Shown here piece by piece: positions 44,409 through 45,864 of a stretch of DNA of 64,000 bases. The position numbers were made by a program, and so were the translations under genes. Under the pieces are notes generated by a model. The model was not told where the DNA came from, made no database searches, and was given only the letters and a program-made list of their open reading frames with translations. Source of the DNA: Geoalkalibacter subterraneus. Its GTDB lineage: Bacteria; Desulfobacterota; Desulfuromonadia; Desulfuromonadales; Geoalkalibacteraceae. The first letter of the stretch is position 1. Every line of letters starts with the position of its first letter. The stretch covers positions 2,542,001 through 2,606,000 of the forward strand of contig NZ_CP010311.1 of the NCBI RefSeq assembly GCF_000827125.1. The letters are read 5' to 3'.

Positions 44409-44639
44409 ATGAGTGTAGACGAATTGAAAGACGCCGTTCTGGCGCTGGAAGCCGATGAGAAAAAGCAGCTCCTGCTGGAGACCCTGCCCCAGTTGTCGCG
44501 CGAAGTCATGCAGGATCGCGAGTTTCTTATGCAGCTGCTGCCAATTTTCATGGGACTGATCAAGGACAGCGGAATCGACCTGGGCCAGCTGGCGCAGATG
44601 GCCATGATGATGAACGGCAACCGCCCCCCGCAGGCCTGA
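44409..44639 (+). CDS. Small hypothetical protein
   Basis: 76 residues, 21 bases after lon. Mostly helical with a Met-rich end (LAQMAMMMNG) and no cysteines or signal peptide. AGGAG is present but 13 bases before the ATG. No function recognised; likely co-transcribed with lon. Confidence 0.55.
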   Translation: MSVDELKDAVLALEADEKKQLLLETLPQLSREVMQDREFLMQLLPIFMGLIKDSGIDLGQLAQMAMMMNGNRPPQA

Positions 44640-44649
44640 TGATTGAGAA

Positions 44650-44678
44650 TTGACGCCGTGGAAGGAACCTGCTAGCTT
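44650..44678 (+). promoter_or_regulatory. Probable promoter of the trpS leader
   Basis: TTGACG (44650-44655), 17-base spacer, TAGCTT (44673-44678). Transcription would begin near 44685, almost at the leader-peptide ATG (44687), so that peptide may be read from a leaderless RNA. Confidence 0.5.
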
Positions 44679-44686
44679 ATAGCGCC

Positions 44687-44764
44687 ATGACGACGATGAC
44701 TGAACAAAAGCTTCTGAATAAAAACTGGTGGCGAATCTGGATGCACCCGGGTTCGCGCGCCTGA
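44687..44764 (+). CDS. Trp-codon leader peptide of trpS
   Basis: A 25-codon frame, ATG 44687 to TGA 44762-44764, with three Trp codons among five (14, 15 and 18; NWWRIWMHP). Trp is rare in proteins, so three in such a short peptide in front of the tryptophanyl-tRNA synthetase gene points to attenuation. A second ATG at codon 4 is possible. No Shine-Dalgarno sequence stands at the right distance (AAGGA is about 20 bases upstream). Confidence 0.75.
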   Translation: MTTMTEQKLLNKNWWRIWMHPGSRA

Positions 44765-44771
44765 CAACAAG

Positions 44772-44813
44772 GTTTCGCCGCGAATTCAGGACCGGCTCGC
44801 GGCGGCTCAAAAC
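44772..44813 (+). promoter_or_regulatory. Competing hairpin between leader peptide and terminator
   Basis: GTTTCGCCGCGA (44772-44783) can pair with TCGCGGCGGCTCAAAAC (44797-44813). Its 5' arm can also pair with GGCGAA overlapping Trp codon 15 and Arg codon 16, and its 3' arm (GCGGCT) with AGCCGC of the terminator stem. Such shared arms are what an attenuator needs; which fold wins with a stalled ribosome cannot be decided by eye. Confidence 0.5.
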
Positions 44814-44825
44814 CTCAATCAAAGA

Positions 44826-44861
44826 CGAAAGCCGCGGCCTCCTTACCGCGGCTTTCGTTTT
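44826..44861 (+). terminator. Intrinsic terminator in the trpS leader
   Basis: CGAAAGCCGCGG (44826-44837), 8-base loop, CCGCGGCTTTCG (44846-44857), then TTTT. The stem is perfect, 12 bp. It lies 37 bases before the trpS start and could also end read-through from lon. Confidence 0.85.
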
Positions 44862-44898
44862 ACATGCAAATCCCCATCCCAGGAAAAGGATTCAGGAA

Positions 44899-45864
44899 AT
44901 GAGAATTCTCAGCGGCATTCAGCCCTCCGGCAATCTTCATCTCGGTAATTACTTCGGCATGATGAAGAAGATGATTGCCTACCAGGAGAACGAAGATCTC
45001 TTCTGCTTTATCGCCAACTACCACGCCATGACCTCCGTCAGCGACGGCAAAGCCCTGGCGCGCGGGACCCTGGAAGCGGCGGCCAATTTTCTCGCTCTGG
45101 GGATGGATCCCGAACGCAGCACCTTCTGGGTACAGTCCGACGTCCCGGAAGTGCAGGAGCTGACCTGGGCGCTGTCGAACTTCACCCCCATGGGGCTGCT
45201 GGAACGCTGTCACAGCTACAAGGACAAGATCGCCAAGGGAATTGCGCCCAATCACGGCCTGTTCGCCTACCCGGTCCTGATGACGGCCGACATCCTGCTG
45301 TTTCAGAGCGAAAAGGTTCCGGTGGGCAAGGACCAGAAGCAGCACGTCGAAGTGGCGCGCGACATTGCCCTGAAATTCAATCATCATTACGGCGACATCT
45401 TCACCATCCCCGAACCCGAAATCGATGATGAGGTCGCAACGGTCCCCGGAATCGACGGCCAGAAGATGAGTAAGAGTTACGGCAATACCATCGATCTGTT
45501 TCAGGAAGACAAAGCGCTGCGCAAGCAGATCATGCGCATCGTCACCGACTCGACACCGGTTGAGGCCCCGAAAAACCCCGATACCTGCAATGTATTCCAG
45601 ATTTACCGCCTGTTCCTCGACAAAGAACAGCAGCAGGAACTGCGCAACAGATACGAGGCCGGCGGCATGGGATACGGGGAAGTGAAGCAGGAGCTGTTTG
45701 AAACGGTGCGCGACTTCTTCGCGCCCTATGCCGAGCGGCGTCGCGAGCTGCTGGCCGATCCGGACGGCCTGCGCGCCATTCTGGCGCGCGGTGCCGAAAA
45801 AGCCCGCGCCGCCGGGGCAAAAACCTTGCGCAAGGTGCGCAAGAGAACCGGCCTGGCTTATTGA
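44899..45864 (+). CDS. trpS: Tryptophanyl-tRNA synthetase
   Basis: 321 residues from ATG 44899 (MRILSGIQPSGNLHLGNYFG); a longer frame from a GTG at 44728 would run through the terminator and is rejected. A class I synthetase: the HIGH-type motif is PSGNLHLGNY (9-18) and the KMSKS motif occurs as GQKMSKSYG (near 190). Trp-site parts (TADILLFQ, VPVGKDQKQHVE) are present. Expression is probably controlled by the Trp-codon leader and terminator in front. Confidence 0.98.
   Translation: MRILSGIQPSGNLHLGNYFGMMKKMIAYQENEDLFCFIANYHAMTSVSDGKALARGTLEAAANFLALGMDPERSTFWVQSDVPEVQELTWALSNFTPMGLLERCHSYKDKIAKGIAPNHGLFAYPVLMTADILLFQSEKVPVGKDQKQHVEVARDIALKFNHHYGDIFTIPEPEIDDEVATVPGIDGQKMSKSYGNTIDLFQEDKALRKQIMRIVTDSTPVEAPKNPDTCNVFQIYRLFLDKEQQQELRNRYEAGGMGYGEVKQELFETVRDFFAPYAERRRELLADPDGLRAILARGAEKARAAGAKTLRKVRKRTGLAY

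Follow-up and report, generated by a model that had tools for sequence, protein, structure and literature searches.

A candidate six-arm tryptophan attenuator, probably with a leaderless leader peptide, ahead of trpS in Geoalkalibacter subterraneus and other Desulfuromonadales

In Geoalkalibacter subterraneus, the tryptophanyl-tRNA synthetase gene (trpS) lies behind a short reading frame with three tryptophan codons, a series of mutually complementary RNA arms and an intrinsic terminator. We propose that these parts form a ribosome-mediated transcription attenuator through which the supply of Trp-tRNA would set the expression of trpS, a reading to which we give a probability of about 0.83. Control of trpS by ribosomes stalling at the Trp codons had been suggested by a first-pass annotation of this DNA. 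It stands as the best reading of the locus, and it is supported by the regions upstream of trpS in relatives, 35 of 87 of which carry the element.

The window, i.e., the whole stretch of 64 kb that was analysed, contains the element, from promoter to trpS, on its forward strand. The gene downstream of the leader is certainly trpS: positions 44899-45864 encode a protein of 321 aa that matches TIGR00233 at 304.5 bits (cut-off 176.75) as well as PF00579, as had been proposed. Upstream of it, we read from the sequence a promoter, TTGACG-N17-TAGCTT (44650-44678), in which the TGC just 5' of TAGCTT makes an extended -10 element; the box TTGACG/C-N14-TGN-TANNNT also precedes the leader in relatives. 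A consensus promoter scan overlooked this promoter, whose TAGCTT is identical to TATAAT at three of six positions. From promoter geometry, transcription is predicted to start at 44685, the seventh nucleotide after the -10 box and 2 nt 5' of the leader ATG, which fits the earlier guess of a start near 44685. The leader frame (44687-44764; MTTMTEQKLLNKNWWRIWMHPGSRA followed by a stop) begins 8 nt after the -10 box and has 25 codons, with Trp at codons 14 and 15 (44726-44731) and 18 (44738-44740), exactly as first annotated. Its peptide has no match above cut-off in Pfam or NCBIfam.

The frame is followed by a strong intrinsic terminator (44825-44861). Its core had rightly been called a perfect 12-bp stem with a U tract: CGAAAGCCGCGG (44826-44837) pairs with CCGCGGCTTTCG (44846-44857) in 12 pairs, and the U tract is short, four T (44858-44861) and then ACATG. 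In the fold of the whole leader the stem extends to 16 pairs, between 44822-44837 and 44846-44861, and its outer part includes the U tract. This fold (44687-44870) has an energy of -70 kcal/mol, compared with -52.0 +/- 3.9 in shuffled sequences (z -4.6; none of 200 as low). Rfam returned no family at gathering score across the window. At 44600-44910, the Rfam Trp leader model was unmatched even at E up to 5, and no T-box covariance match was found, including among the eight weak Rfam matches there. Between lon and the leader lies a gene of 76 aa (44409-44639) that belongs to no Pfam or NCBIfam family above cut-off; by eye, a frame resembling it stands directly 5' of trpS in the loci of the nearest genus (L004-L007).

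The position of the leader ATG suggests an unusual start of translation. Among 34 leaders, its distance from the -10 box is 7 nt in 12, 8 nt in 14, 9 nt in 7 and 10 nt in 1, too short for a Shine-Dalgarno site to fit in. Of 45 strict promoters with an ATG in the next 60 nt, 41 have the first one at 7-10 nt. Since transcription usually starts at the seventh nucleotide after the -10 box, the 5' end would be about 0-3 nt from the leader ATG. The leader is thus probably translated leaderless, without a Shine-Dalgarno site. The genome of G. subterraneus contains 11 sites with TTGAC-N18-TANNNT and an ATG at 7-9 nt (none in the reversed control). At four of them (L199, L202, L204 and L208) a frame of 228-368 aa begins with that ATG, and at the others, including the trpS leader, one of 4-78 aa. 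Leaderless starts may therefore be common in this genome, these sites being putative starts.

We analysed the conservation of the element among 98 genomes drawn around G. subterraneus, 95 of which have a TrpS match (E up to 0.001; weak in G021, G090 and G094). We took 90 regions upstream of trpS, of which 87 were usable, three (L019, L072 and L079) being dropped for having less than 230 nt upstream. A leader was defined by a TTGAC promoter, an ATG 6-10 nt further on, and from it a frame no longer than 45 codons that includes Trp-Trp. Such promoter-coupled leaders were found in 35 regions, none on the reverse strand and none in each of 20 shuffles. When the promoter is not required, the count remains at 35, against a mean of 0.85 in 20 shuffles (maximum 3) and one of 87 on the reverse strand. 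Scoring with a 17-nt spacer gives 34 leaders, the 35th (L011) having a spacer of 18 nt. All 35 are followed by an intrinsic terminator (34 of 34 scored, plus L011), commonly AAAGCCGCGG...CCGCGGCTTTT, and one common terminator arm motif occurs in 33 of 34. The leader peptides share little beyond Trp-Trp, which is followed by Arg in 31 of 35. Leaders are present in 11 of the 21 sampled families of the order. In 277 genomes of the class, the strict promoter-leader pattern has 32 matches (the reversed pattern has none), all within the 136 genomes of the order and none in the 141 outside it. By coordinates compared by eye, 31 of these sites are no more than about 400 nt 5' of trpS, and the remaining one (G125) was confirmed separately; in G020 (L060), one of the 32, the ATG and the Trp codons are in different frames. 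Across 395 genomes of the phylum, the pattern matches three times: in G. subterraneus, in one more member of its order, and in G479; the last was rejected as a leader, its ATG opening a frame of 218 aa.

The intact element is absent from 52 of the 87 regions, some of which retain parts of it. Promoter, ATG, a single Trp codon and terminator remain in L018 and L061; promoter, ATG and terminator, without Trp, in L066 and L073; promoter and half a terminator in L029 and L058; promoter and ATG with a frame of five codons in L045; and the promoter alone in L010, L021, L062 and L081. L025 and L053 have the terminator without a strict promoter at the leader position, and L053 still has the Trp-Trp pair. 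In the nearest genus, the leader is absent from all four genomes (L004-L007), as are its promoter and terminator. These partial copies are scattered among families with the intact form, and we thus take the element to be ancient in the order and to have decayed repeatedly. The first-pass annotation had named relatives that keep the terminator without the Trp codons as evidence against its reading: this pattern does occur in some of the 52 regions, next to 35 in which the element is intact. It had also called for joint variation of Trp codons, terminator and alternative stems among relatives. Trp codons, frame and terminator do occur together in the 35 regions, and no compensatory changes were found in the antiterminator stems (see below). 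TrpS itself is 77-92% identical to that of G. subterraneus in full-length hits within the order (73% in one case), compared with 34-40% in those from the other order of the class, a gap that suggests that the gene was replaced in one of the two. In that other order, the promoter-leader pattern was not found; a short Trp-Trp frame occurs in 5 of 30 upstream regions (L173, L179, L180, L183 and L194) and is absent from 25.

Reading the leaders side by side, we found that the RNA comprises six arms, built from a single motif and its complement, and that each arm can pair with either neighbour. Typical arms are UGGUGGCGCUGGACC (A), CGGUUCGCG (B), CGCGGACC (C), GGUCCGCGG (D), AGCCGCGG (E) and CCGCGGCU (F). 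In the fold of the G. subterraneus leader, arm A (44727-44740), over the Trp codons, pairs with B (44747-44761) in a first hairpin that the earlier annotation had not listed. The intermediate hairpin that it had listed is real (44770-44815) and is made of C (44770-44787) and D (44797-44815), through 44776-44783 with 44797-44804; its arms can indeed pair to either side. On one side, B can pair with C (44749-44757 with 44779-44787; nine pairs, two of them G-U), and on the other D can pair with E (44797-44803 with 44831-44837). Arms E (44825-44837) and F (44846-44861, including the four-U tract) are the 5' and 3' arms of the terminator.

Compared with dinucleotide shuffles, the A-B-C-D-E chain has a mean z of -3.9 over 33 leaders and is the stronger in 32 of them, 30 beating 12 of 12 shuffles; it was not found in L088. 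We then compared the alternative pairings with a structure-preserving null, in which base pairs are permuted inside each hairpin and the hairpins are kept. In 27 leaders, B:C reaches -12.4 against -9.1 in the null, and D:E -15.0 against -9.2, with none of 300 as strong in either case. For 14 hand-picked leaders from 13 genera the result was also 0 of 300 for each pairing, and for the G. subterraneus leader taken singly p was 0.043 (B:C) and 0.013 (D:E). The exceptions are the clade of family f18 (L052, L063, L069, L070, L071 and L074), where B:C is no better than the null, and L023 and L037, which fail for B:C, L023 failing also for D:E. The chain, own-versus-other-species and structure-preserving tests use the set of 34 leaders, to which L011 does not belong; L009, whose terminator motif was unmatched, was left out of these and of the ordered-folding test, and six leaders without a clean two-hairpin fold (L008, L026, L028, L049, L051 and L088) were left out of the structure-preserving null.

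We also compared pairings within and between species. With arms chosen blind to how they might otherwise pair, D:E does better inside a species than across species (9 of 5000; 102 of 5000 for 16 hand-picked leaders), and B:C does not (2792 of 5000; 775 of 5000 for the 16). These 16 leaders represent 14 genera, L026/L037 and L032/L059 being congeneric. A version of this comparison with chain-optimised arms was dropped because the choice of arms biases its result, and the blind-arm and structure-preserving tests were used instead. In an alignment of 18 sequences, chosen by hand and leaving out the f18 clade, 94% of cells are paired in both exclusive structures (27-49% in slid controls). The classical covariation test is weak here because the 18 rows vary too little: in the antiterminator no pair changed on both sides (0 cells, versus 7 in the terminated structure), and it is no better than column shuffles, 361 of 500 having as many paired cells and 422 of 500 as high a covariation, compared with 6 of 500 for the covariation of the terminated structure. 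The mutually exclusive antiterminator pairings B:C and D:E thus beat their null without compensatory changes, and the sequences support a putative six-arm chain in most leaders, those of the f18 clade and L088 excepted.

We infer the following kinetics and response to tryptophan. Transcription would begin about 2 nt 5' of the leader ATG, and a ribosome would load onto the very 5' end, with no Shine-Dalgarno site involved. When Trp-tRNA is plentiful, it would pass the Trp codons and reach the stop. Either A:B and C:D or just C:D would then form, leaving E free to pair with F, and transcription would end at 44861. A ribosome at the stop codon, or none at all, would permit C:D and E:F. When Trp-tRNA is scarce, the ribosome would stall at codon 14, 15 or 18 and cover A (such a ribosome shields some 13-16 nt from the Trp codons), B would be free for C, D would take E, and with F left single-stranded the polymerase would continue into trpS.

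The pairing order had previously been judged, by eye, not to give the classical sign. It probably does, i.e., low Trp-tRNA gives more trpS, if six arms are counted rather than four, with B:C and D:E as the alternatives, and may do so in the G. subterraneus leader taken singly. At equilibrium the terminator prevails. The equilibrium pairing of E in RNA cut before F (means of 0.59 without ribosome, 0.66 with a stalled one and 0.54 with one at the stop) hardly distinguishes the three states and was dropped as a test of the sign. In a model of ordered folding with a barrier of 9 kcal, read-through was obtained in 22 of 34 leaders for a stall at the second Trp codon, 15 for the first, and 3 each with the ribosome at the stop and with none; with a barrier of 3 kcal, the numbers were 5, 3, 2 and 1. 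The model is crude, its outcome varies with the settings, and it favours the classical sign only at the high barrier.

Three other explanations were weighed, all of them improbable. The one that survives best, though we regard it as quite unlikely, involves no termination of transcription: the stalled ribosome would act on the translation of trpS or the decay of its mRNA, or the leader RNA or peptide would act in trans like rnTrpL and peTrpL. Such action in trans is described for the products of trpL in Sinorhizobium meliloti, whose RNA begins at the leader ATG (PMC7298713), and the trpS leaders of Vibrio and Photobacterium have no clear terminator. The presence of a terminator in every leader of the order argues against this explanation, and the dissimilarity of the peptides outside Trp-Trp and Arg speaks against a function of the peptide. 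Somewhat less likely still is that the hairpin simply terminates the upstream unit of lon and the small gene, the Trp frame being incidental and the trpS promoter lying further down. The terminator does sit between two genes on the same strand, and a few relatives (L025, L066 and L073) have it without paired Trp codons. Yet the promoter that we identified is upstream of the terminator, no second promoter of the TTGAC type was found between terminator and trpS in any of 34 leader loci, and the combination of promoter, ATG, Trp-Trp and terminator recurs across 35 regions but not among shuffles.

The least likely explanation keeps the attenuator and inverts its sign: a ribosome at the stop codon would cover part of C, so that D:E forms and plentiful Trp gives read-through. 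It draws on the G. subterraneus leader, whose RNA folds as D:E when free from 44776 with F absent, and which is one of the three that, for a ribosome at the stop, read through in the ordered-folding model (under each of its three barriers, and under two of four from 44775 in a second run with another step). We consider it very improbable, as C:D is still possible and its computed stability exceeds that of the bare D:E helix (-14.9 versus -11.4), the ribosome stays only briefly at a stop codon, and the model terminates in 29-32 of 34 leaders in this state. For the G. subterraneus leader the outcome of the model shifts with step and ribosome edge, the second run mostly terminating.

We also searched one genome per species (84,980 species) for the promoter-ATG-Trp-Trp-Arg pattern and found 42 stretches, 29 of them in frame. 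Seventeen of the 29 precede trpS of Desulfuromonadales (the locus L095 ends before the gene), two a divergent trpS (Vibrio, Photobacterium), six a TrpB-like gene (Meiothermus), one a planctomycete trpE, two a conserved gene of Gastranaerophilales, and one (L098) a gene with no evident link to Trp. In the Meiothermus loci (L097, L100, L112, L114, L124 and L128) the promoter-coupled leader reads MR.RTPR.YKWHHQRWWR and is accompanied by hairpins and T runs, and the gene that follows encodes a PLP-dependent enzyme resembling TrpB (PF00291 in L097, the one tested). In Gastranaerophilales (L093, L103), a Trp-Trp leader (..RNSLNLNRNWWRL) and a terminator precede the gene of a conserved protein (about 410 aa); that of L103, the one tested, matches no Pfam family. 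In Vibrio zhanjiangensis and Photobacterium sanctipauli (L120, L122), the divergent TrpS is about 32% identical, and in an Anaerohalosphaeraceae bacterium (L126) a Trp-Trp leader and terminator lie 5' of trpE (PF00425, PF04715). It is conceivable, if rather doubtful, that the combination of a leaderless start with a Trp-Trp-Arg leader evolved repeatedly, loading at the first nucleotides keeping the ribosome in step with the polymerase.

If the proposed attenuator is real, a Gram-negative order beyond the alphaproteobacteria attenuates through leaderless leader peptides. The switch would be carried by a tRNA synthetase gene, while trpE of G. subterraneus shows no Trp-Trp leader (no TGGTGG within 700 nt upstream of the domain match). 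The scattered decayed copies, with the promoter kept and arms or Trp codons lost, would be a natural series on what an attenuator requires, and the leaderless start would make the timing of ribosome and polymerase directly testable.

A Trp attenuator of trpS is of a kind already known and, going by the literature searched, is new to this group: on trpS and leader-peptide attenuation in Geobacter, Pelobacter and Desulfuromonadales it yielded only a Caulobacter paper, and the group may be covered elsewhere. Judging by its title, Lopatovskaya et al. 2010 (Mol. Biol. 44:128) deals with attenuation of aminoacyl-tRNA biosynthesis operons, and trpS of the group may already be listed there. Vecchione and Sello 2010 (J. 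Bacteriol. 192:3565) are said to treat an auxiliary, indolmycin-resistant trpS of Streptomyces, in S. coelicolor. In the alphaproteobacterium Caulobacter crescentus, a study based on ribosome profiling reports a small leader frame in the trpS mRNA, the part of it available describing no attenuator structure (PMC4117421).

The closest counterparts by gene are in Streptomyces, where attenuators were predicted before trpS, e.g., trpS2 of S. avermitilis (PMC1262725), and where the trpS leader TrpL2 and a leuS leader of S. lividans are transcribed leaderless (PMC8079986). As here, a Trp leader peptide lies 5' of the gene for tryptophanyl-tRNA synthetase. Unlike here, TrpL2 has one Trp (MMTRTCTQLWRAA) and two hairpins without a uridine-rich stretch, in another phylum (PMC8079986), and the accessible portions of both sources describe no six-arm design. 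The attenuators of trp operons (E. coli, S. meliloti trpL) share the consecutive Trp codons and the terminator, but control trpE operons; here the gene is trpS and six arms are proposed. The trpL attenuator of E. coli uses four segments. The enteric his operon attenuator has six arms, A to F, of which A:B, C:D and E:F terminate and B:C and D:E read through; it differs in its His codons, in a leader with a Shine-Dalgarno site and in its biosynthetic operon, and its six-arm scheme is the same as the one proposed here.
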